Shown here in pieces: positions 16,810 to 36,087 of a DNA stretch of 64,000 nt (position 1 is its first letter; the number at the start of each line of letters is the position of its first letter). The stretch lies in the NCBI RefSeq assembly GCF_001634365.1, contig NZ_CP014579.1, positions 124,001 through 188,000 of the forward strand, written 5' to 3'. Position numbers and translations under genes: made by a program. Below the pieces are notes generated by a model. That model did no database searches, was not told where the DNA came from, and saw only the letters and a list, made by a program, of their open reading frames with translations. The stretch is from Paraburkholderia phytofirmans OLGA172 (lineage in GTDB: Bacteria > Pseudomonadota > Gammaproteobacteria > Burkholderiales > Burkholderiaceae).

Positions 16810-16884
16810 AGTTCTTTTTTGGACGATTGATTGTTGGAGGGATTCAAACTACGCTGAGGCGGACGACTAGCGCGGAGAGCCGCC

Positions 16885-17535
16885 ATGTTTTCTTCGCAAT
16901 ATGCTGCGAGGTTCAGATTACTGGCGTGCTATCTATGTTTGGCCGGGATGATTATGCCTCGAGTACGGGCGGAAGGTAGTCCCCCCAAAGAACCCGCTTC
17001 CGCGCCGCATGCCGATTTGCTGACCTTTCTCCTGGAAAAGGCGAGCGCGATGGTCGGAGCTCACCCAACTCGCTACAGCAATCACATTTCACGCGGCTTG
17101 GCGTTGCATGAAACAGTCGTTCGAATAACGGACGAAAAGATAGATTTAAGTTCCGTGTTGGGTAATGTATCGGACCCGACTTATTACCTCCGATGGCAAC
17201 CGTTGGCGATATCCGACCGGAGCGCCGAAGGTGATCCCGTCGGACCGATTCCTTACGCAAGGACTCCATCAACACCTGCCTGGGGCTCATCCGACGGACT
17301 CAGGCCGGGACTATACGAAGTATCGTTGGTACGACGAGACGATGATACGTATCGGCTAGCCGGCGCTGCCACCGCTTGGGTACTTATCTGTGACGCGAGG
17401 ACGTTCAAGGCGGACAGTGCGGCCTTTCGCGATGCGCAGCGTAAATTGGAAGCGCGGACGTCTATCGATCCGACGGAGGAGAAAACGCTCCTGCGCGCTA
17501 TGCTCGATCTGTTGGCGAAGCAGGGTAATAAGTAA
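16885..17535 (+). CDS. Exported protein of unknown function, CHASE2-CHAT operon
   Basis: A 216-residue protein with an N-terminal hydrophobic signal (about 10-27) after ATG 16885. It has YYLRWQPLAISD and GLYEVSLVRRDD, giving a beta-rich core, and a charged helical C-terminus. I do not recognise the family. The next gene begins 32 bases downstream, so it heads an operon with the CHASE2 and TPR-CHAT proteins. An extracytoplasmic place fits its partners. It might be a ligand-binding or scaffold subunit; that is inference. Confidence 0.65.
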   Translation: MFSSQYAARFRLLACYLCLAGMIMPRVRAEGSPPKEPASAPHADLLTFLLEKASAMVGAHPTRYSNHISRGLALHETVVRITDEKIDLSSVLGNVSDPTYYLRWQPLAISDRSAEGDPVGPIPYARTPSTPAWGSSDGLRPGLYEVSLVRRDDDTYRLAGAATAWVLICDARTFKADSAAFRDAQRKLEARTSIDPTEEKTLLRAMLDLLAKQGNK

Positions 17536-17567
17536 AACCTAACCTACCACTGACCGGTGTCGTTGCG

Positions 17568-18752: not shown

Positions 18753-18800
18753 AGAACCAACCTGATTGCCAACATTGGTGCTTCTAGCCTGGAGCGCATT

Positions 18801-21800
18801 ATGACGAAGCGGTTAAGTTCTCTTATGGATAGGACACGCTTATACATGCGAAACCATGCCGGAGTCTTCTTGCCGGCCGGCGCCCGCGCACTTATGACCG
18901 TCTTCGCTCTGGCTTGGACTGGCGTGGTGAACGGACAGTGGGGGCAGCAGGTACCCTATGCGCCCGGCGCAAGCGGGCAGTTCCGCACGGCTGGTAGCCA
19001 GGATCCTCGTTTGGTTGAGGCCAACCAGCTCAATCAGCAAATGGAAAGTCTGTACCGCGAGGGGCGGTTTCAGGAAGCATTGCCTATCGCTCAGAAAATC
19101 CTGACGCTTCGGGAGAGCGTTCTCGGGGACCTTAACCCGAATGTCGCAGCGGCCCAAAACAGTCTGGCAATCCTCTACGATGAACTCGGGCAATATTCCG
19201 AGGCCGAGCGTCTTTACCAGCACGCCTTGGCAACGTACGAGAAAACTACCAGTCCTCAAAACCCGTCTTACGCAACCGCCCTTAACAATCTCGCCAATCT
19301 TTACCAGGCCACAGGTGAATACGCGAAGGCGGAGCCGTTGTACAAGCGTGCACTCTCAATCTACGAAACAGGTACGGAAAAAAATCTGCCAAATATAGGC
19401 AAAGCGTTGGGAAATCTAGGGTTACTGTACAACGTACAAGGGCGATACAAAGAGGCGGAGCCGTTGCTTGTTCGCGCGTTGGAGACCTACGAGAAGGCAT
19501 TAAGCCTCACTGACCCGCTGGTGGGAACGGCTCTGAACAATCTGGCATCCCTTTACCAAGAGGAAGGCGATTACGCTAAGGCGCAACCACTGTTTGAGCG
19601 CTCCTTGGCGATCTTCCAGACAACGCAAGATCCTGAGAGTCCTATCTTAGCCAAAGCGCTAAACAATCTTGGGCTGATCTATACGTATGAGGGGCGCAAT
19701 GAAGAGGCAGAGCAGTTGCTCATGCGTTCGCTTGCGATTCGAGAGAAGACGCTTGGTCCGGATCATACGGATGTCGCCCAAACACTGAGCAACCTTGCGG
19801 CGCTCTATGAGTCTCGCGGCCTTTACGCGAAGGCCGAACCGTTGTACGCGAGGGCCGTCGCGATTTATGAAAGGACTCTCGGACCTAACCATCCAGAATT
19901 AGCTACGGCGCTCACCAATCTGGCAGCGCTCTATGAAGACGAAGGACGGTACGCAAAGGCAGAGCCTCTCTGTAAGCGAGCCTTAACAATTTATGTAAGT
20001 AACTTCGGCCCTGACCATCCGGAGGTTGCCGACGTCCTGGACAGGCTGGGGCAGCTTGCTATGGATCAGGGGCGGTATGCCGAGGCAGAGCCGCTGCTGC
20101 AGCGCTCCCTCGCAATTCGAGAGAAAGTTCCCGGGCAAGTAAATGGCGGTGTAGCAACATCGCTCAACAGTCTGGCCGGACTCTATCAGCATGAAGGCAG
20201 ATACACAGCTGCAGAGCCGCTTTACCAACGCGCTCTGGCGATTTACGAGCGGAGTATCGGGCCAGAGAATCCAGAGGTCGCCCGCTCGATGAACAACCTT
20301 GCGGGACTCTATGTAGACGAAGGTCGATATCCGGAAGCGGAGCAGTGGTACAAACGCGCGCTAACGATGCAGGAGAAACTGTCAACTCCTGCGCATCCGG
20401 ATGTCGCTGCATCACTCGACAATCTTGCAACGCTTTACACAATTGAGGGGCAGTACACGACGGCCGAGCCCTTGTCTCAACGTGCTCTCGCGATTCGAGA
20501 GAAAGTCTTGGGCCCCGATCATCCAGACGTCGCCAATTCGCTTAACAATCTGGCAAGTCTTTATCTAAATGAAGGTCGGTTTGCAGAGGCGGAGCCGCTG
20601 TATCGTCGTGCTCTTGCGATCAAAGAGGCAACGGCAGGTCCAGAGAGTCCAGAGGTCGCCACTGCGCTCAGTAATCTGGCTATGGTTCAAGTCGAAGACG
20701 CGCCGGCAAAGGAGATGTTTCAGCGAGCCCTCGCGATCGAGGAAAAAACCTTGGGCCCAGAGCATCCGCTTGTTGCTGCATCGCTCGACAATATTGCATC
20801 GCTATACATGATTCAGGAGCAGTACGCTCAGGCGCAACCCCTGCTTCAGCGGGCGCTGGAAATTCGCGAGAAATCCTTGGGCCCCGAGCATCCAGAAGTA
20901 GCTAACTCGTTGTACAAACTCGGTCTGCTGGATCAAGAATTGGGCTTGTACGCGGCGTCCGTGCCGCTGTACCAGAGGGCCTTGGCAATTCGCGAGAAAG
21001 TCCTGGGTTCTGAGGATGAAAGCGTGGCGCTAACCCTGCAGAATCTTGCGCTGCTTCATTGGTCGCTTAATGATGTCCGGGGGGCGATAGGACTTGCAAC
21101 TCGTTCGGCTGACATCGAGGAACATATCCTGGCTATCCAACTTACCGTCGGATCAGAGCGAGAGAAGCTTGAGTATTTGCGAACAATCTCGAACAGCTTA
21201 AACGTCAGTGTTGACCTCCACTTGCACGGTTCGCCTAGCGATCCCAAGGCGGCCGAACTGGCGCTGACCACGATCCTGCGCCGTAAGGGCCGCGCTCTCG
21301 ACGCTGCGAGCAATCAGATTGCTGTTGTACGCCGGCATCTCTCGCCCGCCGACGCGGCTTTGCTGGACGAGCTGGCGGCCCAGCGTAGCGAGCTGGCTAA
21401 GCTGACGGCAAAGGGGCCGGACTCAAGTGACACCTCGTATTATCGTTCAGAAATATCGAGCATCAGTGCGAAGGCCGACGATCTTGAGCAAAAGATAGCC
21501 GCACGTAGTTCCAGCTTAGCCGCGCTGGTGCAACAAGTGACGGTAGATCGGGTCCGCAAGGTTATACCTGCCAATGCCGCACTGATCGAATTTGTTGCTT
21601 ATTTTCCATTTGATCCCAAGGCTGCACGTAGCGAAAGATGGGGCGCACGACGCTACGCAGCTTACGTGCTGACGAAAAATGGCGATATCCGATCGGCTGA
21701 CCTTGGCGACGCGAAGGCAATTGATCGGGAAATCGGCGATTTTGGAGAAGCGCTGTCCAACCCTGAGCAATTCGACGAGACGCACACGAAGCGTTTGGCG

Positions 21801-22787
21801 CGGGCGTTGGACGAGAACGTGATGTCTCCAGTTAGACCACTGCTCGGAAACGCCACGCAGCTACTAATTGCCCCGGACGGCGCGCTGAACCTGGTTCCGT
21901 TCGCAGCCCTCGTCGACGAGCGGAACCATTATTTGGTTGAGCAATATTCCATAACGTATCTTACTAGCGGACGTGACCTGTTGCGGATGCAAAATGATGC
22001 GCCCAGTCGTAGCGCTCCGGTGATCATCGCGAACCCAGCCTTCACTTTCGATGTTATCAAAACAGTTGCTTCTGTGCACGCGACTGGAAGCTCTTCTGCA
22101 GCAAGATCTGGTTATCCCCGGATGCATTGGGACCCGCTGCCGGGAACCGCACAGGAAGCTGCAGCGGTGAAAGCATTGATGCCACAGGCGCAGCTTCTTG
22201 AGGGGCAATACGCCACTGTAACTGCCCTTGAGAAGGTTGCCGGTCCGGAGATTTTGCACATTGCGACCCATGGGTTCTTCTTGCCTGATCAACCGCCTGT
22301 GCCGCCGTCAATCGGACCGGATGTGAAGAAGTCCAGAGAATCGCTAGTAGAAAATCCTCTATTGCGTTCAGGTTTGGTCTTCGCTGGAGCGAACTCCCGA
22401 AATGGTGGTGAAGGGCAGGACGGGATTCTGACGGGACTTGAGGCTACGGGCCTGGATCTCTCGGGTACCAAGCTCGTCGTTCTTTCAGCGTGTGAAACCG
22501 GGCTAGGGCAAGTGAGGAGCGGCGACGGAGTGTATGGCCTGCGTCGCTCCCTCGTCTTGGCTGGAGCGGAAAGTCAGCTGGTGAGCTTATGGCAGGTTGA
22601 CGACAAGGCGACTCGAGATTTGATGGTGGCGTTTTACAAGCGTCTGCTAGCGGGAGCGGGCCGTGGCGATGCACTGAGGCAGGTTCAGTTGGATATGCTG
22701 ACACATCCTGAACTACGGCACCCGTACTACTGGGCCGGTTTCGTCCCGCTTGGTGACTGGAGAAATCTGAAGGACGAGCCGCTGTAA
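18801..22787 (+). CDS. TPR-CHAT caspase-like protease, apparently exported
   Basis: A 1328-residue protein. About 17 tetratricopeptide repeats of 42 residues (consensus LAxLYxxxGRYAEAEPLYxR) run from about 60 to 780, then a linker and a C-terminal CHAT domain (about 1000-1320). The catalytic His lies in LHIATHGFF (H1157) and the Cys in VLSACETGLG (C1231), so the caspase-like site is intact; the GDGVYGLRRSL and AGA segments are also present. The N-terminus has a basic stretch followed by MTVFALAWTGVVNG, which reads as a signal or membrane segment, unusual for a conflict protease. Substrate unknown; candidates are its neighbours. Confidence 0.85.
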   Translation: MTKRLSSLMDRTRLYMRNHAGVFLPAGARALMTVFALAWTGVVNGQWGQQVPYAPGASGQFRTAGSQDPRLVEANQLNQQMESLYREGRFQEALPIAQKILTLRESVLGDLNPNVAAAQNSLAILYDELGQYSEAERLYQHALATYEKTTSPQNPSYATALNNLANLYQATGEYAKAEPLYKRALSIYETGTEKNLPNIGKALGNLGLLYNVQGRYKEAEPLLVRALETYEKALSLTDPLVGTALNNLASLYQEEGDYAKAQPLFERSLAIFQTTQDPESPILAKALNNLGLIYTYEGRNEEAEQLLMRSLAIREKTLGPDHTDVAQTLSNLAALYESRGLYAKAEPLYARAVAIYERTLGPNHPELATALTNLAALYEDEGRYAKAEPLCKRALTIYVSNFGPDHPEVADVLDRLGQLAMDQGRYAEAEPLLQRSLAIREKVPGQVNGGVATSLNSLAGLYQHEGRYTAAEPLYQRALAIYERSIGPENPEVARSMNNLAGLYVDEGRYPEAEQWYKRALTMQEKLSTPAHPDVAASLDNLATLYTIEGQYTTAEPLSQRALAIREKVLGPDHPDVANSLNNLASLYLNEGRFAEAEPLYRRALAIKEATAGPESPEVATALSNLAMVQVEDAPAKEMFQRALAIEEKTLGPEHPLVAASLDNIASLYMIQEQYAQAQPLLQRALEIREKSLGPEHPEVANSLYKLGLLDQELGLYAASVPLYQRALAIREKVLGSEDESVALTLQNLALLHWSLNDVRGAIGLATRSADIEEHILAIQLTVGSEREKLEYLRTISNSLNVSVDLHLHGSPSDPKAAELALTTILRRKGRALDAASNQIAVVRRHLSPADAALLDELAAQRSELAKLTAKGPDSSDTSYYRSEISSISAKADDLEQKIAARSSSLAALVQQVTVDRVRKVIPANAALIEFVAYFPFDPKAARSERWGARRYAAYVLTKNGDIRSADLGDAKAIDREIGDFGEALSNPEQFDETHTKRLARALDENVMSPVRPLLGNATQLLIAPDGALNLVPFAALVDERNHYLVEQYSITYLTSGRDLLRMQNDAPSRSAPVIIANPAFTFDVIKTVASVHATGSSSAARSGYPRMHWDPLPGTAQEAAAVKALMPQAQLLEGQYATVTALEKVAGPEILHIATHGFFLPDQPPVPPSIGPDVKKSRESLVENPLLRSGLVFAGANSRNGGEGQDGILTGLEATGLDLSGTKLVVLSACETGLGQVRSGDGVYGLRRSLVLAGAESQLVSLWQVDDKATRDLMVAFYKRLLAGAGRGDALRQVQLDMLTHPELRHPYYWAGFVPLGDWRNLKDEPL

Positions 22788-23017: not shown

Positions 23018-25381
23018 CTACTCGTCAGTCTGCTGAGTCGCCAGCGCGGCCATGCTAGTGAAGTGACCCGGATCGCAATAATGTATGAAATCTAGCACTT
23101 CACTCAAGACGGCGGGGGTCTCCGCCAGGAGCGACAGGTCATGCTCCGGCTGGGCAACCTGGTCGAAGTGCGAGTAGGTGTGCAGGAATCGCAGGATTCT
23201 TGTTTTTTTATTGGGATCGTATTCAATGCCCTGCAGCTTTTGATACAGCTCACCGACCTTGTCCGGTACCCGGAACGCGAGAAACGACTCGAGCAGCCGT
23301 CGCGCGATGTTGGGCATCGCGTAGTAAGCCTCGATGCTCAGAGTTGAAGCCTTATTTGCCTCCTCGTGTACCCGTTTAAAGAGGTAGTGATATTCGGACT
23401 CATATTTGTGAAGAAACGGGTCGAGTTCGGACAGCCGTGCGGTTCGTTGCCCATCGATGAACTCACTGGTTAGCATGTAAAATCGTGCTGGACGCGGCCG
23501 GGCCTCGGTTTCCTTTTTGTTTTGCCCCTCGAGGTTGTAGTACCAGTTGCGAACCTGGCGGAAGAAGGTGAAGTTGTGCGTCAGCACGAACAGCTGGCCG
23601 GCCGTGTGGGTGCGTTCCTTCATGAAACCAAACGCGCTGAAGAGAGAATTGGCGTCTAGGCTCGAAACAGGGTCGTCGATAACGACAACGCCATTGGTGA
23701 GATCAAAATCAGCCCCCTTGAGCGATTTTAGGAAATGGAGGAAGGCGATTGCAGTGCGTTCGCCGTCGCTCAGATGGGCTGCTGGCTGGCCACCTCTGGT
23801 AATCCGATACCCGTTCTGTTCGACGTGGAAACGTAACTCGTCGCGCCCAAGATATGACGCGACTTCCACGTTGAGTTCATCTGCCGGCCGCCTATGTTGC
23901 CGGATCTCGCGCTCCAGCTGAGCTATCTCCTTAGTGAGCTTGTCCGCACTTTCACGCTCCTTCGTCGCTTTTTCTCCTGCATCCTCAACCTGCGTGGACT
24001 TCTCCCGCCAGCCTGGGAGTGCCCGGACCAGTTCGTTCTGCGCCAGTGCGGCGCGAGCCTCCTTCATCTTGGCGTCGAAGGTGTCTGTATGCGAGTTATG
24101 GCGCTGAATAATCTCCGCGAGCTTGTCGAAAGAGGTCTTGCCAATCACTGCGCTGAAAACAGCGACGCCGGCCATCGCAGCCTGGAAGAATTTCTCGACT
24201 TTCCCGACAGGGTAGTCGGCGCTACCATCGCCTGTCATGAAGCGGGAAAGCTCGAGACGCTTAAAAGGATCCTCGCGTTTCGCTTTTAACCCGCGCAACA
24301 AGACTTCAAGCGAGAGTCGCAAAGTGGATGCGCTCTGGCTTAAGGAGTCCCTTGCGGTTTGATATTCGTCGCGAAGCTCGGAGTAGAGTGCCTCTTTCGG
24401 CGGGACCTGCAACCGATCTCTGAACTCACAGGCCGCTTCGACCTCGATAATCAAACTGTCGAGGTCTGACTGGAATCGCTTGAATTCATCGTTGAAGTGT
24501 GCTTCAAGCTGCGCGATCCGCGCTGGTGGAAACGGCTGGTCGCAGAACAGGCAAGTGCCTGACTGCTGAAGTTCGGTGTGGAGGTACAACCCGGAATTGA
24601 CCCACCGGGAAACGGCGGGGTTTTCGACGAGTTCAGCAATTGTCGCAGAAACGAGCGAGCGCTCAAGCATCGTCTGGGAACGTGTTGTCAGATCGGCAAA
24701 ATCCGGGAAGCGAATCGAAGGATCGGACACCTTGTCCATCGCCTTTCCTTCCTTGGTAGCGAGATATTGCTTCCTCTGCTTGTCCGTCAAAGGCTGGGGG
24801 GACGGCGCCGAGTCGGCGAGCTTCTTGATGGCTGTCTTGAAATTCGCAGCATTGTAGTTGTTGTAGATTCCGCCGCCTGAGACAGTCAACAGGTTCTTGA
24901 TCCCCTTCGACTCTTCGGCGGAAAATGACTCCATGGCTGCACCAGCCTCGGCTTTCGCGCGATTGAAGCGGGATTCCTTTTCGACGTGAACTGCCTGCTG
25001 CTTTTTTAACTCCTCGATGAGCTTTTGCTTCTCGACACTATCTTCTCCCAAGTAGAACACCGGGGGAAACTGTTGCCCTCCGACTTCGAATACGTTCCGG
25101 TCGACTGTGTCGCGATTGAACACGCGTACCGGCGGCATTGCCGCTTTGGCAAAATCCGCGCCAGCCACACGCGTCTGGTCGATTTGGATTTCGACATCGC
25201 CGTCGGTGAGCGAAGTCCTGGTCTGCAAATGCCTGAAGATGTTCGAGATCGAAGTCTTACCTGTGCCGTTCCATCCATAAATCATGTTAAATCGGCTAAA
25301 GTCTGGCAGACTCGTCGCGGGCCAGGCGAAGTCGCGGAAGATCCGATAGTTCTTTGCCTTCCGTATGCGTGTGATTCTCAT
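23018..25381 (-). CDS. RloC/PrrC-like ATPase with zinc-hook motif, possible anticodon nuclease
   Basis: A 787-residue protein. Walker A is YGWNGTGKTS (about 35-44). A central coiled region holds CLFCDQPFP (277-285), like the CxxC zinc hook of RloC and Rad50. An ABC signature-like LSDGERTA and Walker B VVVIDDPVSSLD follow. The C-terminus has RRLLE (R-x3-E) and, 40 residues on, TYSH, matching the order Arg, Glu, His of the PrrC/RloC tRNA anticodon-nuclease site. PrrC and RloC cut tRNA after phage damage. I took ATG 25381 because the longer frame to 25513 lacks any conserved start. Activity is inferred from spacing of motifs only. Confidence 0.6.
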   Translation of the reverse strand: MRITRIRKAKNYRIFRDFAWPATSLPDFSRFNMIYGWNGTGKTSISNIFRHLQTRTSLTDGDVEIQIDQTRVAGADFAKAAMPPVRVFNRDTVDRNVFEVGGQQFPPVFYLGEDSVEKQKLIEELKKQQAVHVEKESRFNRAKAEAGAAMESFSAEESKGIKNLLTVSGGGIYNNYNAANFKTAIKKLADSAPSPQPLTDKQRKQYLATKEGKAMDKVSDPSIRFPDFADLTTRSQTMLERSLVSATIAELVENPAVSRWVNSGLYLHTELQQSGTCLFCDQPFPPARIAQLEAHFNDEFKRFQSDLDSLIIEVEAACEFRDRLQVPPKEALYSELRDEYQTARDSLSQSASTLRLSLEVLLRGLKAKREDPFKRLELSRFMTGDGSADYPVGKVEKFFQAAMAGVAVFSAVIGKTSFDKLAEIIQRHNSHTDTFDAKMKEARAALAQNELVRALPGWREKSTQVEDAGEKATKERESADKLTKEIAQLEREIRQHRRPADELNVEVASYLGRDELRFHVEQNGYRITRGGQPAAHLSDGERTAIAFLHFLKSLKGADFDLTNGVVVIDDPVSSLDANSLFSAFGFMKERTHTAGQLFVLTHNFTFFRQVRNWYYNLEGQNKKETEARPRPARFYMLTSEFIDGQRTARLSELDPFLHKYESEYHYLFKRVHEEANKASTLSIEAYYAMPNIARRLLESFLAFRVPDKVGELYQKLQGIEYDPNKKTRILRFLHTYSHFDQVAQPEHDLSLLAETPAVLSEVLDFIHYCDPGHFTSMAALATQQTDE

Positions 25382-25670
25382 TGTGTTTTTCAACCTTCGG
25401 GATGTCGTTGCGACCACGTCGTGCAAGTGATAAATGGTGCGGGAATCCTCATGGCGGGCTGGCCGATTCACTCCAACTCGCTCCGAGCAGTCTAGCGGAT
25501 TTCGTGTCAGCATTCTCCGAACCGAAACTGGATTGAATTTTTAAGCATCTGCCGCCGCTATTTGTTCTGTACATGGCTACGCGACAGCGTCTATCGTTCT
25601 CAAAAGACTAACGCTAAGCGATATGTGCGTGGCATAGTGCGATCATTCTCTTAACCACGCGGAGTTCAAT

Positions 25671-26483
25671 ATGGCAACGCTAGAACAAATTCAGAATCGA
25701 TTGAAAAAGCTGCAGGCGCAGGCTGATGCGTTGATCGCCAAGAAGGCACAGTCGGTAGTCGACCAGATTCGTGAGTTGATGTTGAAGCACGGTCTCACGA
25801 TCGCAGACATCGAAACAAATGTGAAGGCTCGCCGTGAAGCGAAGACTTCGGTTGATCGCAAGGCTGCTGTTAAAACCAAGGGCGCGAAAGCTGCTGATGT
25901 GCCGAAGTATCTCGACCGGAAAACCGGTGCGACCTGGACCGGCCGTGGACGCGCGCCCGCCTGGATCGCGAGCGCCAGGGACCGTACCAAGTTCCTTGCC
26001 GATGTTAGGGTTGAAGCAGTCTCTGCAACAGATGAGAAATCGACGGTCGTTGCAAATGGCGTTGTACGCACCGGACAGCCTAAGGGTACGCAGCCAGCGA
26101 TGTACGTCGACCGAAAGACGGGCGCCACCTGGAGCGGACGCGGACGCGCGCCGTCTTGGTTGGCTGCTGCAAAGGATCGCACGAAGTTTCTGATCGATCC
26201 GGTTGTCGATGTCAAAGGAATTGTGTCGAAGGAAGAGGTCGCTCCAACGGCGATCCAAAAAGGCGCCGTCGGAGCGAAGAAGGTTGCAAGGAAGAAATTA
26301 GCTACGGCAAAGAAAGCTGTCATTAAAGAGGTGTCGACTACGAAGATGGAGGCTACCTCCAGAGTCAAGAGGGTTGCGGCCAAAAAGGCCAGCGACCGGA
26401 AAAGCGCTGGAGCTAGGGCGCCTGCAGTGGACGCTGGCTCTGATGTCGTGGCCGAGTCGCCGGCCGAGCAGCTAGCAGCGTAA
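25671..26483 (+). CDS. H-NS-like protein with duplicated DNA-binding motif and basic tail
   Basis: A 270-residue protein, over twice the usual H-NS length of about 100-135. Residues 1-55 are the helical oligomerisation region. Two copies of the DNA-binding domain follow, with TGATWTGRGRAP (about 86-97) and TGATWSGRGRAP (about 150-161), each ending in a similar DRTKFL segment. Residues 200-250 are Lys/Ala-rich (KKVARKK, RVAAKKAS), as in histone H1-like tails. GGAG precedes ATG 25671. H-NS proteins bind AT-rich DNA and silence foreign genes. This one lies between an RloC-like gene and a reverse transcriptase, and might control the island. Confidence 0.85.
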   Translation: MATLEQIQNRLKKLQAQADALIAKKAQSVVDQIRELMLKHGLTIADIETNVKARREAKTSVDRKAAVKTKGAKAADVPKYLDRKTGATWTGRGRAPAWIASARDRTKFLADVRVEAVSATDEKSTVVANGVVRTGQPKGTQPAMYVDRKTGATWSGRGRAPSWLAAAKDRTKFLIDPVVDVKGIVSKEEVAPTAIQKGAVGAKKVARKKLATAKKAVIKEVSTTKMEATSRVKRVAAKKASDRKSAGARAPAVDAGSDVVAESPAEQLAA

Positions 26484-26682
26484 GTTGATGGTCGTGCAAT
26501 ACCGCGATCCCAGTGCAACTATGGCGTCTGCACTGCACGGGTCACAGGAGCTGGCTTTCATCTTTGATCTCTCTGCGAGGCAGTTCCATAGTTAGGTGCG
26601 AGGCGTTCAAGTCTGTCAGCCATACGGTTGAACGGTTCGTGGAAAATTTATGCGGCTGAATTTTTCTGCTGCGGAGGTCGGA

Positions 26683-26901
26683 ATGTTTGTTGAAGAAGAA
26701 TTCAAACTGAATAATGGTGAGAAACTCGTCAATCATCGCTCACGCGTCGCGGGATTCATGCAAAACGAAGATATCGACGAGTACGACGTCATTGACGCAA
26801 GCGGGGAGACGATCGCATCAGTTAAGATAACGGTGCATACTGATGTCAAGGCTCCGTTCAAAACTACGAGAACTGTTCAGCGCAAAGATCGGGTGCGCTA
26901 G
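26683..26901 (+). CDS. Small protein upstream of the reverse transcriptase
   Basis: A 72-residue protein starting at ATG 26683 after GGAGG (26671-26676 region). It is acidic-to-neutral and contains EYDVIDASGETIASVKITVHT. No signal or membrane segment. I do not recognise the family. It ends 56 bases before the RT start on the same strand, so it could be co-transcribed and act as a regulator or accessory protein. Confidence 0.6.
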   Translation: MFVEEEFKLNNGEKLVNHRSRVAGFMQNEDIDEYDVIDASGETIASVKITVHTDVKAPFKTTRTVQRKDRVR

Positions 26902-26957
26902 TAGAACCCGACCGTTCGAGCGCCTCGTCTTTTCCAGTAACTGGATGATCGTCCAAA

Positions 26958-28598
26958 ATGCCTGACGTTACATTGGAACATTTCGAGCGCGCCGGCGCCG
27001 ATATAGGAGCTCACGGCGACAACGACACGTTGCCGTTCGATATAGACACGCGCTTTGTTGAGCAGCGCCATGCGGAACTTGCCGGAATGGCGTTTTCCTT
27101 GTATCAGGAGTTGCAATGCGACACTGTCAAGAACAGCGCACGGAAACTCGCGGAGCTCAGCGTTTTCAATGAGCGTCTTTTGGCCCCCACTGGGCCCGCT
27201 GGATTCCGGATATCCACGAAGATCCATCCGTTCTGGACCGTCTATTTCAATGGTCTCGGCATCGCGATTGCAGACGCGCTCGAAGACCAACGCGACCTGT
27301 GTGCAAGGTCATACCGGTTCCTGCGTGACGGTGGGGATGAACTGTTCAACAGGAATTTTTCATGGCGAGCGTTTCGTGAAGCCACTGTCGCAGAGGCAAA
27401 CAGTATTGCGGGCGGGGCGATTGTTGCGCAAACGGATATCTCGAGCTTTTATGAGCACATTTCGCATCATCACGTCCAGAATTCACTGAACGACCTTTTT
27501 CCTGATGGACGGATAGGCAACCAGATAACTGCGTTGCTCGGAAAGTTCTCGGCGGGGCGTTCGTTCGGATTGCCTGTAGGCGGTCAGGCTTCCCGCGTGC
27601 TTGCGGAGCTCTTTCTCGACTCCGTTGACCAAAAGATGACGGTCGGCGGGTTCCGATGGTTTCGATACGTCGATGACTATGTACTCGTCGCGGATTCCTA
27701 TCCGGATGCGTACCGTGCGCTTGCGGCACTTTCGTATGCTCTAGCCGACTACGGCATCACGCTGAACAAGACGAAAACGGTGTTGCTGACGTCGAAACAC
27801 TACGTCGACTATGTTGCAGCGCAGCTTGGCAGCGACGGAGATGATGCGGCCCGGTTGCGGGCAATCGACCTGTATTTCGATCCATATTCGGATGCAGGGG
27901 CGGAAGACTATGAGTCACTCAAGCAGACTGTCGAGGGTCTGCAAGTGCAGGCAATCCTGGAAAGGGAGCTTGAAAAGTCTCTACCCGACAATTTTCTGGT
28001 CGTACAAGTTAGCAGGACGCTGAAGTTGCAGCCGCCCACAGCGGCGTTGCAACTTGTCAGGACGCTCCTTAGCCCTGACAACCTTCATGCGTTCCGCGCC
28101 TCATGGTCGACAATCATGCGGGGGATCGCAGGCCTTCGCGCTACCCTCGCGTTCAAGGATATCTTTCCGCAAATAGATCACATGCTGGACGCAGTGCCCG
28201 AGCATTCATCTCATCTGCTGCAGGCGGAAGCCAGCGTGTTGCACTATATACGGACGCTACACATGGAGCGAACGTCAAAGCGAGCAACGTTTGTCCAACG
28301 CGTGTATGACATCACGCGCTCGGAGACCGTGAAGCGGGCTTGCATCGAGTGTTGGCGCAGGTGGAAGGACCGGGCCGCTTTCACGGCGCTTCGGAACAAC
28401 TGGTCGAGCATGAGCCCAGAGTGCCAGCGTCTGGTGTGGCTCGCGGCTGCATCGTTTGGTGATCAGGGGGAGGGGTTCCGGCGCCAGGTTGAACCCAGTC
28501 TGAAGCGCGCTTGGCAACTCGGCATCGAGAGGCAAAATAGCCCGGCCTTCGCTCTGCTTTACCAAGGTTGGTGCGATGACGCTGAAGCTACTGCATGA
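26958..28598 (+). CDS. Reverse transcriptase (defence-type, unassigned group)
   Basis: A 546-residue protein with the reverse-transcriptase motifs in order: motif A VAQTDISSFYEHI (D160), motif B GLPVGGQASRVLAE (about 204-217), motif C FRYVDDYVL (YVDD at 237-240), motif D GITLNKTK. A helical C-terminal domain of about 250 residues follows, with no recognised maturase domain, so it is not a group II intron protein. The 3' end overlaps the nuclease-like gene by 23 bases. This stand-alone, paired arrangement is typical of the unknown-group (UG/DRT) defence RTs. I cannot say which group. Confidence 0.85.
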   Translation: MPDVTLEHFERAGADIGAHGDNDTLPFDIDTRFVEQRHAELAGMAFSLYQELQCDTVKNSARKLAELSVFNERLLAPTGPAGFRISTKIHPFWTVYFNGLGIAIADALEDQRDLCARSYRFLRDGGDELFNRNFSWRAFREATVAEANSIAGGAIVAQTDISSFYEHISHHHVQNSLNDLFPDGRIGNQITALLGKFSAGRSFGLPVGGQASRVLAELFLDSVDQKMTVGGFRWFRYVDDYVLVADSYPDAYRALAALSYALADYGITLNKTKTVLLTSKHYVDYVAAQLGSDGDDAARLRAIDLYFDPYSDAGAEDYESLKQTVEGLQVQAILERELEKSLPDNFLVVQVSRTLKLQPPTAALQLVRTLLSPDNLHAFRASWSTIMRGIAGLRATLAFKDIFPQIDHMLDAVPEHSSHLLQAEASVLHYIRTLHMERTSKRATFVQRVYDITRSETVKRACIECWRRWKDRAAFTALRNNWSSMSPECQRLVWLAAASFGDQGEGFRRQVEPSLKRAWQLGIERQNSPAFALLYQGWCDDAEATA

Positions 28599-29310
28599 TC
28601 CCCGGACGGTTGCCCGTGACGTCCCGGGGCTCTTCGATGTTGTCTTCCCGCAACTGACGCCGGGCGTCGTCGCGTATTTCAACCGCACGCGCAAAGCTGC
28701 CGATGTCAATCCGGTCGCAACCAGCCTGATTGCGCAAAGCAAGCTACAAAAGGCCATGCTGTTTGAACTCGGTTCGACAGTGGGGGAAATGCTGCTGGAG
28801 GGCAGGCCTATAGACTGGGACGAGTGTCGACGCGTTTCAGTCGCGCGCCAACGACGATACTTCGACGCCGATATTCCTGAAGGGATAAGCGACCTCGACA
28901 GAAGCGTCGCGGAGAAAGTTGGGCACAACATCGCGTCGATAGTTTCCAGTATGGCCGCGACACGTGGTCGAAATGTGACGGTTGCTCCGCAGATACCAGG
29001 CCTGCACTGGATTTCCTCCGGGCGCGGCGATTTCGCCGCTGGTCCTGCCCTTATCGAAGTCAAGTGCACGAACAAGAATTTTTCGTCCGCCGATTATCGC
29101 CAGATTGTGATGTACTGGCTGCTCGGATATGCGGCTTCCATTGAGAATCGTGGGCAGGAATGGCCGGAGGGCGTTCTGCTTAATCCTCGATTGGCACAGT
29201 ACGTAGTGTTTGACTTCGACGAACTCATACACGTCATCGGAGCTGGGCGCACGAAGGTCGAGATCCTCCAGGTATTCGCTTCGATGGTCGGTGACCGAGG
29301 TCTGCGATAG
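28576..29310 (+). CDS. PD-(D/E)XK nuclease-like protein, RT partner
   Basis: A 244-residue protein. The core RGDFAAGPALIEVKCTNKNF has the D-x8-E-x-K spacing (D152, E161, K163) of restriction-endonuclease-fold nucleases, followed by DYRQIVMYWLLG, a helix that often carries the next conserved Gln/Arg. The start ATG 28576 lies inside the RT gene (23-base overlap), which implies translational coupling and equal amounts. Together with the RT it may cut DNA or a cDNA product in phage defence. Not a named system to my knowledge. Confidence 0.7.
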   Translation: MTLKLLHDPRTVARDVPGLFDVVFPQLTPGVVAYFNRTRKAADVNPVATSLIAQSKLQKAMLFELGSTVGEMLLEGRPIDWDECRRVSVARQRRYFDADIPEGISDLDRSVAEKVGHNIASIVSSMAATRGRNVTVAPQIPGLHWISSGRGDFAAGPALIEVKCTNKNFSSADYRQIVMYWLLGYAASIENRGQEWPEGVLLNPRLAQYVVFDFDELIHVIGAGRTKVEILQVFASMVGDRGLR

Positions 29311-29488
29311 CTGCGCGGCGCAAGTTGGCTTGCCAACGCGTTCCGCCGGGCTCGCTTCAGGAAAATTGAGGTGTCAGCGTCAGTCTGACGCAGCCAAGCG
29401 CCGCACATCGCTGTCAGTCACGGTCGTCATGCACCGCTTACTTGGGTGACGGGCTCCCGTGAACTGATGTATTTCTAGACGCTTGGAC
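29311..29488. other. Spacer between RT-nuclease pair and interrupted ORF
   Basis: About 180 bases with no gene I can support. Confidence 0.4.
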
Positions 29489-29585
29489 ATGTCGTTCATC
29501 ATCTGCGTAACGTCGGTCCAGAACTGTACGGCGGGCGGCCTGCCGATGTTGTTCCAACACTATTTGCGCCGATGGCTTGAAGACG
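29489..29585 (+). pseudogene. 5' part of a small ORF split by IS66-1
   Basis: From ATG 29489 the frame runs MSFIICVTSVQNCTAGG... to the target duplication at 29578-29585 and continues in the same frame at 42468-42673 when the IS66 is removed. The joined product is about 100 residues and Cys-rich (CPGCIQTSRGCETFN). The pattern is faintly reminiscent of the C-terminus of DUF1998 proteins, but this is too weak to name. No good ribosome site is seen, so the 5' end may itself be lost. Confidence 0.45.
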
Positions 29586-29654
29586 GTAACCGTCCGACCA
29601 CGACCGTTCTTGACAGCATGTTGATGTCGGACAGTTGAGCGCAGCGCGTTGAGT

Positions 29655-29792
29655 TCAGGCGACGTCGTGGTGAAGCTGATCGGCAACGACCCATGGCAAC
29701 AGTTCGTCGACGCGATTGACGGGATGCTCGGCGATGCGAGCGATGACGTGGCGCAGGTAGGCCTCGGGATCAAGGCCGTTCAGTTTGGCGGT
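29655..29792 (-). pseudogene. tnpC: tnpC (IS66-1), 3' fragment
   Basis: Minus-strand translation gives [19 protein letters not shown], then [13 protein letters not shown] to a stop at 29655, the standard end of IS66 TnpC (DDE transposase). The match begins right after the RIT-1 junction. The rest of the gene resumes at 36729 and runs to 38191. The three bases GGT (29790-29792; ACC on the gene strand) also occur at 36729-36731, which suggests a 3-base target duplication by RIT-1. Confidence 0.85.
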
Positions 29793-29819
29793 TCATGCCG
29801 AATCCCGCGCTATGCCGAA
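29793..29819 (+). repeat. RIT-1 left terminal inverted repeat
   Basis: Begins TCATGCCGAATCCCG and contains the sub-unit CTATGCCGAA. It matches the minus strand of 36673-36699 at 26 of 27 positions. A second related half-site (TTCGGCATAGTC) lies inside at about 29863-29876. Confidence 0.85.
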
Positions 29820-29915
29820 GCAGTTCGTATCATTCACTCCTGGTCATGCGATGCGGTTTGCGCATTCGGCATAGTCTGAGGCTCTCTCCTGTCATTTTGG
29901 CGGGAAGGAGTAGAC

Positions 29916-31157
29916 ATGACCATCGAAGCGTATTACGACAGTCCCAAGATGCTTAAACGGCTTCACGAAGGGCCGTTGGGAGTTCATATCGATCTGTTCG
30001 CAGCGCGGCTGCTGCGAGAGGGACATTGTCGACAAGGAGCATGGCGCAATCTTCGCGTGGCTTGCGACTTCAGTCACTGGCTCGCACGCAAACGGCTTGA
30101 GCTTGACGACATCAACGAGCAATCGATAGAAGAGTATCAGGAGTTCCGTCGCCGATATCGATGTCCATTTCTCAGTGATCGTCCTGCATTGATCAGACTG
30201 CTCGGTCTGCTTCGAGAGATCGATGCAATTCCTGCCAAGCCACCTTTCGCACTGGACGAGCTCGAACAGGTTGTGCAGGATTTTGACCGATATCTGATCC
30301 AGGAGCGCGGATTGGCGCGCGTGTCTGCCGTTCGCCATGTCCCTTTCGCTCGGCAGTTTCTGCGGGAGCATTGCCTGTCTGGCTATCCGCAAATCACCAG
30401 CCTGACTGGTTCGGACGTCATGACATTCATCGAACGTCATGCAAGAGACCACAGTCCGCAATCCGCGAAACATATGTGCTCGGCCATTCGCGCGTTCATG
30501 CGATTTCTGCAATACCGAGGTTACATTGCCGCCGATCTTGCGAGCTGCGTACCAGGTGTGAGAGCGTGGCAGCTCACATCGCTTCCTGCCTATCTGCTGC
30601 CCGACCAGGTTCAAACCGTGCTCAACGGCTGTGACCGGCATACTCCCGTCGGACGCAGAGACTACGCGATCTTGTTGTTGCTTGCTCGCCTTGGACTGCG
30701 AGCAAATGAGATTGCGTTGCTGACGCTCGATGATATTGACTGGCGTATTGGCCAACTCGCCGTTCACGGCAAGGGAAGGCGACGAGCTGAGCTACCGTTG
30801 CCGGCGGAGGTTGGCGCCGCAATGGTGGACTACCTAAAGCACGGGCGGCCGCAATCCGGGAGCCGACGCGTGTTTCTCCGGCACCTGGCTCCGCACATAG
30901 GGTTTGCATCGTCGGCGGCGGTTTCCATGATCGCCACGATGGCGCTCACACGCGCGGGAATCGATAATGTTTCGCACAAGGGCGCACATCTCTTCCGGCA
31001 TAGCCTCGCGACTCAGTTGCTCCGAGCCGGTGCGTCATTGACACAGATCGGTCAAGTTCTCCGTCATCAGGATCATGACACGACCCGAATCTATGCGAAG
31101 GTCGATATCGCCTCGCTGCGCACGCTTGGCCTGCCATGGCCGGGAGGTGTGCGATGA
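29916..31157 (+). CDS. ritA: Tyrosine recombinase RitA of RIT-1
   Basis: A 413-residue site-specific recombinase. The catalytic Arg is in LGLRANEIALL, the HxxR box is HLFRHSLATQL, and the nucleophile Tyr lies in HDTTRIYAKVD. The N-terminal 200 residues are the core-binding SAM-like domain. ATG 29916 follows GGAAGGAG. The stop overlaps the next start as ATGA (31154-31157), so the trio is one operon. All catalytic residues look intact. Confidence 0.9.
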   Translation: MTIEAYYDSPKMLKRLHEGPLGVHIDLFAARLLREGHCRQGAWRNLRVACDFSHWLARKRLELDDINEQSIEEYQEFRRRYRCPFLSDRPALIRLLGLLREIDAIPAKPPFALDELEQVVQDFDRYLIQERGLARVSAVRHVPFARQFLREHCLSGYPQITSLTGSDVMTFIERHARDHSPQSAKHMCSAIRAFMRFLQYRGYIAADLASCVPGVRAWQLTSLPAYLLPDQVQTVLNGCDRHTPVGRRDYAILLLLARLGLRANEIALLTLDDIDWRIGQLAVHGKGRRRAELPLPAEVGAAMVDYLKHGRPQSGSRRVFLRHLAPHIGFASSAAVSMIATMALTRAGIDNVSHKGAHLFRHSLATQLLRAGASLTQIGQVLRHQDHDTTRIYAKVDIASLRTLGLPWPGGVR

Positions 31158-32080
31158 ACACTCTCTCGCAAGCGCTTCGGCAGTACGTGCTCATGCGTCG
31201 TGGTTTTGGGTTCAAGTTTGAGAACCAGGAGAGGCGGCTAACGAGCTTTGTCCGTTTTATGGATGGCCGCGCCGCTACCATTATCACGCACAAGCTCGCT
31301 CTTGAGTGGGCAATGCTGCCTATAGACGGGCGCGCGTCCTGGGCGTTACGCTTAACGGACGTGCGCGGATTTGCACGCTATCGGCGCATTGCGGAAATCA
31401 GGACGGAAGTGCCACCGTTGGGCATTCTTGTTGGTCCCTCACGCCCGAGACCCTATCTCTACACCGACGTAGAGATACAGAAGTTGTTGACGGCTGCGTT
31501 AGAACTTCCTCCGGCAGATGGCTTGCGTCGGTGGACGTATCACTGTCTGTTCGGACTGCTGGCCGTGACTGGACTGAGGATCGGTGAAGTACTTAACCTG
31601 CGACGAGAAGACGTTGATCTGGAAGACGGCGTTATCACGATCCGCGACACCAAGTTCGGTAAGTCACGCCTTGTCCCGGTCCACCACACAACCAGAGCCG
31701 TATTGGCGCACTATGCGCAACGACGAGACGCGCACATCTGGCCGCCGCACAGTCCATACTTTTTCATCGCTGAGCAAGGTGGCAAACTGTTGCACCAATA
31801 CGTTCATCCGGTATTTTTGAAGCTTTCACGGCGAACGGGGCTTCGAAGCCCCGATGCCCATTCCGGTCCTCGTCTGCATGACTTCCGGCATCGCTTCGCA
31901 GTTCAGACGCTGCTCACCTGGTATCGATCGGGTCAAAGCGTCGAATCATGGTTGCCCGTGCTGTCCACGTATCTGGGGCACACCTGTGTGCGCGACACGT
32001 ACTGGTATCTGTCGGCGTGTCCCGAATTGATGGGGCTCGCCGCGCGAAGGCTCGACGTGCGCTGGGGAGCCCCATCATGA
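31154..32080 (+). CDS. ritB: Tyrosine recombinase RitB of RIT-1
   Basis: A 308-residue recombinase from ATG 31154 (GGGAGG upstream, ATGA overlap with ritA). Motifs: Arg in TGLRIGEVLNLRR, HDFRHRFAVQ, and Tyr in VRDTYWYLSACPEL. The nearest visible relative is RitB of RIT-2 on the opposite strand (TGLRISEALNLRR, DTYWYLTG). It overlaps ritC by the same ATGA arrangement at 32077-32080. It acts with RitA and RitC on the element's ends; the division of labour among the three is not known. Confidence 0.9.
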   Translation: MNTLSQALRQYVLMRRGFGFKFENQERRLTSFVRFMDGRAATIITHKLALEWAMLPIDGRASWALRLTDVRGFARYRRIAEIRTEVPPLGILVGPSRPRPYLYTDVEIQKLLTAALELPPADGLRRWTYHCLFGLLAVTGLRIGEVLNLRREDVDLEDGVITIRDTKFGKSRLVPVHHTTRAVLAHYAQRRDAHIWPPHSPYFFIAEQGGKLLHQYVHPVFLKLSRRTGLRSPDAHSGPRLHDFRHRFAVQTLLTWYRSGQSVESWLPVLSTYLGHTCVRDTYWYLSACPELMGLAARRLDVRWGAPS

Positions 32081-32642
32081 GACCAACCCACATCTTGCCT
32101 GCGTTGATCGAACGCTTCTTCACAGAGCGATTGATGCGGCAACGCCACGTCAGCCCACACACTATCGCATCGTATCGAGACACGTTTCGTCTATTGTTCA
32201 AGTTCGCACAAGTCTGCCTGCGTAAGCCCCCATCCAGTCTCGACCTGTGCGATCTTGACGCGCCGCTGATTGCCGCGTTTCTCGAGGATCTGGAGACGCA
32301 GCGATCAGTCAGCGTACGGACACGCAACCTTCGTCTAACCGCGATTCGGTCCTTCTTCCGCTTCACCGCATTCGAGGAGCCTGCATACGCCGCCCACATC
32401 CAGCGCGTGCTCGCGATACCTACCAAGCGATACGATAAGCAACTCGTTCAGTTTCTGACACGCACCGAGATCGAAGCGCTTCTTGTTGCTCCTGATAGAA
32501 CAACGTGGCTTGGACGTCGGGACTATGCTCTGCTATTGCTCGCGATTCAGACGGGGTTGAGACTCTCCGAATTGACAGGGCTCGATCGTGATTCGGTGCA
32601 ATTGGGTTGCGGCGCACACGTTCGCTGCCTTGGCAAGGGGCG
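32077..32642 (+). pseudogene. ritC: ritC of RIT-1, 5' part, split by RIT-2
   Basis: Starts at ATG 32077 inside the ritB stop. It encodes about 188 residues: a SAM-like N-domain and the first catalytic Arg (TGLRLSELTGL), then is cut at VRCLGKGR by RIT-2 and runs on into foreign sequence to a stop at 32748. The rest, with the HxxR and Tyr boxes, is at 36149-36586. Joining 32642 to the bases after 36150 gives GKGRKERC, which matches GKGRKQRT of the other ritC. Confidence 0.85.
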
Positions 32643-32643
32643 C

Positions 32644-32679
32644 AACTATGACGATCTCGGGAATATGCGCAGTTCCGCG
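32644..32679 (+). repeat. RIT-2 left terminal inverted repeat
   Basis: Begins AACTATGACGATCTCGGG and pairs with the minus strand of 36088-36123, 34 of 36 positions. It contains the sub-unit TATGCGCAG, repeated further inside the element near 32741. Confidence 0.85.
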
Positions 32680-32748
32680 CCACAGACGCCAATTCGTTCT
32701 TCTGCGATGGGCTGTGGATGGCGGATCCGTGGTGTGAACTGCGCATAA

Positions 32749-33765
32749 TTACAAGCTTTCCAGGAACTGCATCAAGCGATCGGGCGGTCGATATCGCGCG
32801 ATTCTGCTGTGAGGCGGTTGCAAAGTATTGAGCGCACGCTCCTTCATCGCGAGGTCGGCCTCGACGTACATGTGAGTAGTCGCTGGGCTTTCGTGTCCAA
32901 GCCACAGTGCAATGACACTCAGGTCAACGCCCGATTGCAGCAGATGAGTCCCAGTCGAGTGCCGGATGACATGCGGTGAAATGGGATGGCTTGATAGTTG
33001 AGGGCATTGCCTGGTGGCTGTCCGCGCTGCGAGTTTGAGCCGATCCGTAACGTTGGATCGCGTCATCGGGTTCCCCGAGCGATTCGGAAACAGAATCTGA
33101 TCAGGCGATGACCGGATCCGCGGCAACCAGCTTCTGATTTGGCTCGCGGTTGAGCGCCACAACGGTACGGTGCGCTGTTTCCGGCCTTTGCCGTGGATAT
33201 GTGCACAGGGCGCCTTATCCAGAACGACGTCACCCACCCGCAGACCGATCAGTTCGGAAACGCGTGCGCCAGTATTGTATAGCGTTGCAAACAGTACCCG
33301 GTCCCGCTGCCCGCACCAGGTGTTGGGGTCGGGTGCGGCGAGTAGTGCCTCGATCTCGTCACGCGACAGGTGGCCGATGAGCGGCCTGTCGAAGCGCTTC
33401 ATTGGGATAGCTAGAGTGCTTTGGATAACAGCCAGCGAAGAAATATCCTTGAGGGCTGCGTACTTCAGAAATGAACGGATGGCAACAAGCCGCGAATTCC
33501 GGGTGCGCGCGCAATTATGCCGGTTGTCCTCCAGATGACGAAGGAAGGTCAGCACCAGATCCACGTTGACGTCTGCTAACGCCAGCTCGACAGGCGACTT
33601 ATGCAGACGCGCCTGAGCAAACTGAAGGAATAGTCGAAAGGTATCCCGATAACTGGCTATCGTCTGCGGGCTGACTGCCCGTTGTTGCATTAGCCGCTCA
33701 ACGAAGAATTGCTGTAGCAGCGCGGCGAAGTTCGACGACGAACAATGGCTTTGCCTTTTAGACAT
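32749..33765 (-). CDS. ritC: Tyrosine recombinase RitC of RIT-2
   Basis: A 338-residue recombinase from ATG 33765, preceded by AGAAGGAG. Motifs: Arg in TGARVSELIGLRVG, SPHVIRHSTGTHLL (HxxR), LWLGHESPATTHMYVE (His and Tyr). It matches the split ritC of RIT-1 along its length. It overlaps the ritB stop by 8 bases. Last gene of the RIT-2 trio, followed by the left terminal repeat only 70 bases on. Confidence 0.9.
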   Translation of the reverse strand: MSKRQSHCSSSNFAALLQQFFVERLMQQRAVSPQTIASYRDTFRLFLQFAQARLHKSPVELALADVNVDLVLTFLRHLEDNRHNCARTRNSRLVAIRSFLKYAALKDISSLAVIQSTLAIPMKRFDRPLIGHLSRDEIEALLAAPDPNTWCGQRDRVLFATLYNTGARVSELIGLRVGDVVLDKAPCAHIHGKGRKQRTVPLWRSTASQIRSWLPRIRSSPDQILFPNRSGNPMTRSNVTDRLKLAARTATRQCPQLSSHPISPHVIRHSTGTHLLQSGVDLSVIALWLGHESPATTHMYVEADLAMKERALNTLQPPHSRIARYRPPDRLMQFLESL

Positions 33766-34705
33766 GACAGACTCCTTCTGTAAAGTGCTCGAAGCGCTGA
33801 GCCGCAATTGCCATCAGTTCCGGGATGCCCGTTAGATACCAGTAGGTGTCGGTCACCTTGGCATGCCCTACGTAAGTCGAAAGCATGATCATTGCGTTGT
33901 CGACGTCCACCCCTTGCTGGTACCAGAGCAACACCCTTCGGCAGATAAACGAGTGCCTCAGATCGTGGATGCGTGGAGCCGGATGATCACCACGGGCGAC
34001 CCATCCCAACTGCGAACGCAAGGAACTGAAGACCTCCTCAACGGTACTGATCTTCATGCTGCTTCCGTGCACGATGAAGAAGTGATCGCTTAGCGTGATG
34101 GGCCAATCGCGATCCCGCAGCTCTACATAGTGTGCAAGTGCTCGCACGACCGTTTGATGAAGTGGAACGACGCGGGACTTACGATACTTCGTTACCCGAA
34201 TCATCAGCAGGCCTTGATCGAGGTCGACGTCTGCGCGCCTCAGGTTAAGCGCCTCAGAAATCCGCAGTCCGGTGGCCGCGATCAGCCCGAACAGGGTTGA
34301 GTAGGTCACGGGCCGCAGTTTCTCCTTCGAGGGCAACGTCGAAGCAGCGGCCAGCAGTTCCCGGATCTCCTCATCGGCATAGATGTGCGGTGTCAAACGG
34401 CGATGGGCTCGGCCGAAAAGATAAAGCGGAGGAACTTCGGTGGCAGGGTCAAATTGCTGGAGATACCTTGCGAACGGGCGAACGATCTCAATCCGACGCG
34501 CCCAGGTAAAGGGCACCTGACTTGATGCAGATCGAGCCCAGGACGCTGCCAGTTTTACGGTGAGCGGCCCCTGGTGGCCGATCCGGTCGGCAAAGCAGGC
34601 AAAATCAAGAAGCCGGCGTCCCGTACACCGCAGGTCAAAACCAAGGCGGCGTCTTGACGCAAGGTAGTCCTCGGCGAGCGATAGCATTCTCACTGAACGT
34701 TTCAT
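33758..34705 (-). CDS. ritB: Tyrosine recombinase RitB of RIT-2
   Basis: A 315-residue recombinase. Motifs: Arg in TGLRISEALNLRRADV, RIHDLRHSFICRR, Tyr in VTDTYWYLTGIPEL. The start at 34705 overlaps the stop of ritA as ATGA (34702-34705). Same order, spacing and orientation within the trio as in RIT-1, but diverged, so RIT-2 is a related element and not a recent copy. Confidence 0.9.
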   Translation of the reverse strand: MKRSVRMLSLAEDYLASRRRLGFDLRCTGRRLLDFACFADRIGHQGPLTVKLAASWARSASSQVPFTWARRIEIVRPFARYLQQFDPATEVPPLYLFGRAHRRLTPHIYADEEIRELLAAASTLPSKEKLRPVTYSTLFGLIAATGLRISEALNLRRADVDLDQGLLMIRVTKYRKSRVVPLHQTVVRALAHYVELRDRDWPITLSDHFFIVHGSSMKISTVEEVFSSLRSQLGWVARGDHPAPRIHDLRHSFICRRVLLWYQQGVDVDNAMIMLSTYVGHAKVTDTYWYLTGIPELMAIAAQRFEHFTEGVCHV

Positions 34706-35961: not shown

Positions 35962-36087
35962 GATACCCCTCCTCAAAAAGCCGAACTTGTCGACCTGCCT
36001 CCTGAGGAAAGCACTTTTATTATGCGCAGTCCACTACCGGTACCCGTGACCAAACACCCTTTACAAGGCGCCAAACGGACGTCCCTG

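Follow-up and report, generated by a model that had tools for sequence, protein, structure and literature searches.

The 64,000-nucleotide stretch analysed here from the genome of the soil bacterium Paraburkholderia phytofirmans OLGA172 (contig NZ_CP014579.1, positions 124,001 to 188,000 of the forward strand; hereafter the window) contains a reverse transcriptase (RT) gene whose 3' end overlaps a gene for a PD-(D/E)XK nuclease, and this pair is almost certainly a DRT8 antiphage operon. The two proteins match both PADLOC models of DRT8 over nearly their whole length, no difference sets the pair outside the family, and the locus is an ordinary, intact member of it that belongs to a proteobacterial subclade. 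In the UG scheme, DRT8 presumably corresponds to UG7. What is new comes from comparison: the unit consists of two genes without a sign of a non-coding RNA (ncRNA), its RT is Class 1-like, its partner has a RecB fold, and this partner is absent from some RTs that fall within the Drt8 profile. The favoured reading, to which we give a probability of roughly 0.4, is that the RT is an untemplated DNA polymerase whose product is restrained by its own RecB-type nuclease until a phage disables that nuclease.

The first-pass annotation of this DNA took the pair for a possible undescribed defence system. This novelty is refuted, as the RT belongs to an established group in which this nuclease is the partner: the pair is already represented by the models Drt8 and RTasPDDEXK in PADLOC, the 2023 release of which (PADLOC-DB 2.0.0) carries the Drt8 name for the pairing, and DRT8 is described as having a PD-(D/E)XK domain in passages of a 2025 paper (PMC12596737). 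Antiphage protection is reported for the family in parts of a 2026 commentary (PMC13213688). Excerpts of this commentary and of a 2026 review (PMC13314766) describe the DRT8 mechanism as not established, and the review text names DRT1, DRT5 and DRT8 as three DRT types that are protective yet mechanistically unresolved; a published DRT8 mechanism was not found in the open-licence PMC literature.

Predicted proteins of the pair

The RT gene (26958-28598, + strand) encodes 546 residues from an ATG start, as supported by the list of open reading frames (ORFs), PADLOC and Pfam. Its best PADLOC model is Drt8 (E = 1.8e-144), with residues 5-540 of the protein aligned to positions 3-490 of the 493 in the profile, and RT_UG22 ranks second at E = 6.6e-31. 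RVT_1 (E = 5.3e-15) is the sole Pfam domain, and the Pfam scan finds no maturase domain in the RT, as the first-pass annotation had observed. Neither the RT nor the nuclease scores above the cut-off of any NCBIfam model. A group II intron RT is rejected by the missing maturase domain and by a TIGR04416 score of 62.9 bits (cut-off 300). A retron is likewise rejected: no msr-msd RNA is detected with Rfam, and among the NCBIfam matches listed there is one retron model, at 27.9 bits (cut-off 235).

The YVDD catalytic motif occupies residues 237-240 (27666-27677, + strand). In the aligned RTs, D160, D239, D240 and K273 are invariant (65/65), with residue 237 being tyrosine in 62 sequences and phenylalanine in 3. 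The structure predicted with AF2 (mean pLDDT 84.2) comprises an RT domain at approximately residues 1-300, a low-confidence linker at 305-316 and a helical C-terminal domain at approximately 315-546, which agrees with the helical C-terminal part claimed earlier. Four tyrosines (119, 165, 310 and 318) are invariant in all 65 aligned RTs; Y310 lies inside the linker and Y318 beside it, both behind the RT domain. Judged from this conservation, the four residues are candidate primers only, for a protein-primed synthesis.

Structural comparison of the RT model (VIA) gives full-length matches to DRT6, DRT4, AbiK, Abi-P2 and UG15, with 10-17% identity to the AbiK, Abi-P2 and AbiA structures over the aligned part, and matches to DRT2 and DRT9 over the RT domain alone. 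As in Class 1 UG/Abi RTs, the predicted structure places a helical repeat (alphaRep) domain behind the RT domain, and by this model the RT is Class 1-like.

The nuclease gene (28576-29310, + strand) encodes 244 residues, also from an ATG start, and matches the PADLOC model RTasPDDEXK at E = 1.2e-70. Its catalytic stretch, located from the aligned nucleases, comprises D152, E161xK163 and Q176xxxY180 (29029-29115, + strand). D152, E161, K163, D173, Q176 and Y180 are invariant in 66/66 aligned nucleases, which bears out the earlier choice of D152 and K163 as nuclease residues; even the nuclease of locus L085, which is 25% identical to that of the window, keeps all six. The structural model belongs to the RecB/MGME1/Cas4 fold group and combines the RecB-type fold with the D...ExK...QxxxY arrangement common to MGME1, Cas4, AddAB and Dna2, whereas searches of Pfam and of Protein Data Bank (PDB) sequences with the nuclease return nothing relevant. 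The best Foldseek match of the model is ACE1, of the Cas4 family (E = 3e-4). In Cas4 nucleases, an Fe-S cluster is bound by four conserved cysteines. An assignment as Cas4 is rejected, as these cysteines are not present as conserved residues in the nuclease: C164 is the sole cysteine on the list of invariant nuclease residues from the A2 alignment, with C84 nearly invariant, and position 164 is cysteine in 42/66 sequences of the wider alignment.

Conservation of the pairing and its limits

The 3' end of the RT gene and the 5' end of the nuclease gene share 23 nt (28576-28598, + strand), and the overlap, the coordinates and the catalytic residues had been read correctly from the sequence. Synonymous-codon conservation of the RT peaks at this overlap, with a ratio of 1.27 (mean 1.01, sd 0.04). 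Lesser rises occur in the RT at residues 1 and 21-26 (ratio 1.10-1.13) and in the nuclease at residues 57-61 and 85-98 (ratio 1.09-1.14; mean 1.02, sd 0.045). The earlier description of the genes as fused is too strong, because they overlap and a search aimed at natural RT-nuclease fusions yields none among 1251 candidates at E = 1e-10.

To count the partner, loci were found by the RT alone, the single viral contig coming up with either gene, and the count is therefore not biased toward the nuclease. Removal of five rows with identical RT genes and of L081, which lies inside L067, from the 84 rows examined leaves 78 distinct loci, two of which (L045 and L072) come from one metagenome-assembled genome (MAG) with one RT part each and may be a single locus. 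The nuclease follows the RT in 71/78, which bears out the reading as a stand-alone RT of the defence type whose nuclease partner is conserved. Of the remaining seven, six break off at or close to the end of a contig, where the presence of the nuclease cannot be assessed, and in the seventh, L067, the RT is cut short. The same gene order with an overlap of 4-23 nt recurs in 70/71 nuclease-bearing loci, and the pairing is thus beyond chance; conservation of the partner in other genomes, a check proposed in the first-pass annotation, is thereby confirmed. With starts chosen by closeness to the profile, the overlap measures 11 nt in 36 loci, 23 nt in 10, 4 nt in 8, 14 nt in 7, 8 nt in 4, 20 nt in 2, 13 nt in 2 and 17 nt in 1; it is not measurable in L025, in which both genes are broken.

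Additionally, the distances between RTs and those between nucleases are correlated at 0.94 across 62 loci, a value reached in 0/2000 permutations. In the genus sample, the RT-bearing genomes are also the nuclease-bearing ones, with the exception of G010 (a truncated RT and no nuclease) and G064 (a nuclease with a stop and no RT match at 1e-60). In the order sample, G222 escaped the nuclease search although it has a divergent nuclease (locus L085), and one further match, in G381, is too weak to count (E = 9e-4). Two plasmid copies outside the 78-locus count agree with it: both genes are present in L110, and in L111 a complete nuclease follows an RT whose front half has been lost beside an IS3 gene.

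Damaged copies occur on both sides. The nuclease is damaged and the RT open in L051 and L073 (in-frame stops) and in L034 (short), of which L073 and L034 are MAGs with possible sequencing errors; the RT is damaged and the nuclease kept in L055, L062 and L111; and both genes are broken in L025 and L056. A strict toxin-antidote dependence is rejected in view of this lack of asymmetry between RT and nuclease.

The PADLOC Drt8 profile is broader than the nuclease-bearing clade. Among 339 genomes of the phylum sample, four have an RT match at E of 1e-90 or below, including that of the window; for the other three, Drt8 is still the best PADLOC model, and the nuclease profile finds no nuclease in the 14-15 kb read. 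The same profile finds none near the RTs of plasmid loci L113 and L114. The idea that the nuclease characterizes every RT of the Drt8 profile is thus rejected by at least five RTs with no profile-detected nuclease nearby; the nuclease profile includes the divergent L085 nuclease, but nucleases of greater divergence could escape it. A gene for a DUF87/HerA-like ATPase lies directly upstream of a nuclease-less Drt8-type RT in L113, an Aminobacter plasmid (4561-8584), and in L116 (4008-7861), and this combination is possibly another DRT8 arrangement.

The RT of L085 is 33% identical to that of the window, scores 544 bits with the PADLOC Drt8 model against 481 bits for the window RT, and keeps the nuclease with a 4-nt overlap. 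In a 30-row tree it clusters with the five RTs that lack a nuclease (97/83); flagged long branches occur in this tree, and a DRT2 row with a branch length of 10 falls inside the clade of the window RT. Because L085 groups with nuclease-less RTs, a loss of the nuclease in its branch appears as possible as two gains, which the long branches make unsure, and one sole origin of the nuclease-bearing RTs is unsupported by the tree.

Template RNA and mechanism

A structured RNA nearby, which the first-pass annotation had suggested looking for, does not emerge from Rfam, the flank comparison or synonymous conservation, and an upstream, downstream or embedded ncRNA is unsupported by all three. No Rfam family matches at gathering score in the window, nor at E up to 1 in 25500-30000. 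Comparison of the window with the P. hospita plasmid copy gives a match at E = 1e-8 that is confined to 26952-29290. Coding-strand flanks, 400 nt long, were compared among de-duplicated loci, in pairs that share sequences and are not independent. Shared upstream blocks of at least 100 nt are found in 0/29 testable pairs at 70-75% RT DNA identity, 0/17 at 75-80%, 3/15 at 80-92% and 4/4 above 92%, and downstream blocks in 0/28, 0/16, 3/11 and 4/4 pairs, respectively. The upstream blocks at 80-92% (L010/L057, L036/L065 and L033/L037) and those above 92% are read as probable recent common flanks, because the remaining 12/15 pairs at 80-92% share none, including L003/L004 and L003/L041 at 85-90%. 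Stretches shorter than 100 nt are shared upstream by 3/29 pairs at 70-75% and 3/17 at 75-80%, and downstream by 1/28 and 0/16.

The DRT2 ncRNA is expected just upstream of its RT, and one pair of E. coli DRT2 alleles with 74.1% RT identity, used as a control, retains a 307-nt block at 82.4% in this position. Because 0/46 upstream pairs share a block and the DRT2 control keeps its 307 nt, the flanking sequences give no sign of a conserved ncRNA for DRT8. An ncRNA beside the RT of the kind found in Class 2 DRTs (DRT2, DRT9 and DRT10) is rejected on 0/46 upstream pairs, 0/44 downstream pairs and the lack of an Rfam match. The comparison suggests that DRT8 does without an RNA template. It is very improbable that the RT uses, in a Class 2-like manner, an RNA template that escapes detection because it is highly variable or encoded at a distance, since the DRT2 pair of equal divergence shows its upstream block plainly and the RT model matches ncRNA-free Class 1 enzymes over the full length, against which stand the span of the tests (400-nt coding-strand flanks, the two genes and Rfam, with a single DRT2 control pair) and the short upstream stretches in 6/46 pairs at 70-80%.

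The family, the gene pair, the intact catalytic residues, the lack of any sign of an ncRNA and the predicted folds are what the comparison provides; we infer the DNA synthesis, its priming, its silencing and its trigger as follows. The RT would synthesize DNA in the manner of AbiK, DRT4 and DRT6: untemplated by any nucleic acid, probably in oligomeric form, and perhaps primed on a tyrosine of the enzyme itself. In uninfected cells, the overlapping and presumably translationally coupled nuclease would trim or destroy the RT product. If a phage factor then inhibited RecB-type nucleases or protected DNA ends, the product would accumulate and growth would stop, as in abortive infection.

This course of events is modelled on relatives. 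DRT4/UG15 and DRT6 share with the DRT8 RT the full-length fold of an RT and helical C-terminal domain, with no sign of an ncRNA in DRT8; however, DRT4 and DRT6 are single-gene systems in passages of the 2026 commentary (PMC13213688), whereas DRT8 has its own nuclease. The NCBIfam Drt4 model scores the window RT at 64 bits against a cut-off of 450. AbiK, Abi-P2 and AbiA also combine an RT with a helical repeat domain, but are not known to have a nuclease partner. Template-independent synthesis is stated for the class exemplified by AbiK in an excerpt of PMC13174585. In that source, RecBCD removes the DRT3 product, lambda Gam triggers the defence, and a DRT3 plasmid cannot be maintained in recBCD mutants. 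As described in parts of PMC12483538, the host exonuclease ExoI removes the DRT9 DNA product until the phage protein gp58 shields it, and, in excerpts of PMC13314766, phage ORF55 shields the DRT4 product from host exonucleases.

DRT3 and DRT9, in which a nuclease checks the polymerase product, depend on a housekeeping host nuclease and have an ncRNA, whereas DRT8 has a RecB-fold nuclease within the operon, and its likeness to them as a restrainer is by analogy. DRT8 would carry its own restraining nuclease, an on-board stand-in for the RecBCD and ExoI that serve in DRT3 and DRT9. By this analogy, an on-board version of host-nuclease control is the plainest reading, and the nuclease may be the system's own eraser of RT-made DNA. 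The more specific proposal of an untemplated polymerase and a dedicated RecB-type nuclease made in step as a polymerase-eraser pair, with phage anti-RecB proteins such as lambda Gam as the trigger, whereby a phage that counters the host nuclease would itself set off the defence, is rather unlikely. Two findings weigh against the silencing of the RT product by the nuclease: the copies in which the nuclease is damaged while the RT is open (L051, L073 and L034), with the reverse also found, and the existence of Drt8-type RTs without the nuclease.

The same lack of asymmetry between damaged copies fits a nuclease that acts as the effector, a reading nearly as likely as the favoured silencer. The RT would then sense infection, and its product or the synthesis itself would activate the nuclease to degrade phage or host DNA. 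The invariant catalytic residues (66/66) and the tight pairing and co-inheritance with the RT agree with an effector, and swappable effectors would fit both the other genes that adjoin Drt8-type RTs (the DUF87/HerA-like ATPase of L113 and L116) and the listing of Cap17 with DRT8 in the text of PMC10952713. However, the nuclease is predicted to fold like the RecB-type nucleases that act on DNA ends, and for DRT9 and DRT4, with DRT3 similar, the excerpted sources describe the DNA product as the toxic agent that nucleases restrain.

End-acting relatives, the gene overlap and the co-inheritance would suit a nuclease that matures the product by trimming or releasing protein-linked DNA, with both activities needed in one complex; the candidate primers Y310 and Y318 (65/65), in or beside the low-confidence linker, point the same way. 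This proposal is improbable, and the Drt8-profile RTs that lack a nuclease weigh against it.

Distribution, surroundings and implications

The genome of the window has one copy of the DRT8 RT; it additionally has nine matches to the Drt2 model below the cut-off, i.e., several other RT genes. With the window's own genome included in each count, RT matches at E of 1e-60 or below occur in 6/144 genomes of the genus, 4/399 of the order and 1/369 of the class. The GTDB contig scan gives 73 loci, and IMG/VR gives one viral contig with both genes. Four plasmids have an RT match at E of 1e-40 or below, three of these matches spanning at least 80% of the RT; in the Rhizobium plasmid L110 (881-9620), the annotated neighbours of the DRT8 genes include a VapC toxin-antitoxin pair and an ABC-three-component system. 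No RT match at E = 1e-5 is present in the phage record collection, and a survey, in the portion that treats the Pseudomonas syringae complex, gives 14% of DRT8 there as prophage-encoded (PMC13182921). The flanks of 26 hand-picked loci, scanned for a defence island without a control, contain 102 ORFs with scattered PADLOC matches and four integrases; the matches listed, for 25 of 60 families, include a type I REase, AbiP2, LmuB, IetA and others, with one ORF each.

The 72-residue protein noted earlier upstream of the RT does exist as a reading from 26683, within an 83-aa ORF at 26650-26901, but it is placed outside the unit because it has no family match in PADLOC, Pfam or NCBIfam and because, in a search against the ORFs of 76 loci, only the window's own copy matched. 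As a component of the system it is therefore rejected. Farther upstream, 25671-26483 (+ strand) encodes an H-NS-family protein of 270 aa with two C-terminal H-NS domain stretches, and 23018-25513 (- strand) encodes an 831-aa ATPase with the Pfam domain AAA_13 that matches the PADLOC candidate defence family PDC-S06 at E = 6.7e-292. At 13099-22787, a subtilase gene on the - strand adjoins a series of + strand genes that include those for a CHASE2 protein and for a TPR-CHAT protein of 1328 aa; together they are a possible protease-based signalling module.

Downstream of the pair, 29916-35976 holds two three-gene sets placed end to end in opposite directions, with products of 413, 314 and 266 aa on the + strand and of 424, 315 and 352 aa on the - strand. 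The first members are 34% and the second members 43% identical, and the five genes scanned (all but that for the 266-aa product) are tyrosine recombinases; we take the sets to resemble two 'recombinase in trio' elements. A recombinase-like trio, judged by size and order, is also found in the Caballeronia plasmid L114 (11353-14494), 2.8 kb from the nuclease-less Drt8-type RT.

For the DRT8 family, the comparative data narrow the choices: the unit comprises two genes, shows no sign of an ncRNA and joins a Class 1-like RT to a nuclease of the RecB fold. Should the nuclease prove to be a silencer built into the operon, the control of DRT products by host nucleases would become a general rule, with some operons carrying a nuclease of their own.
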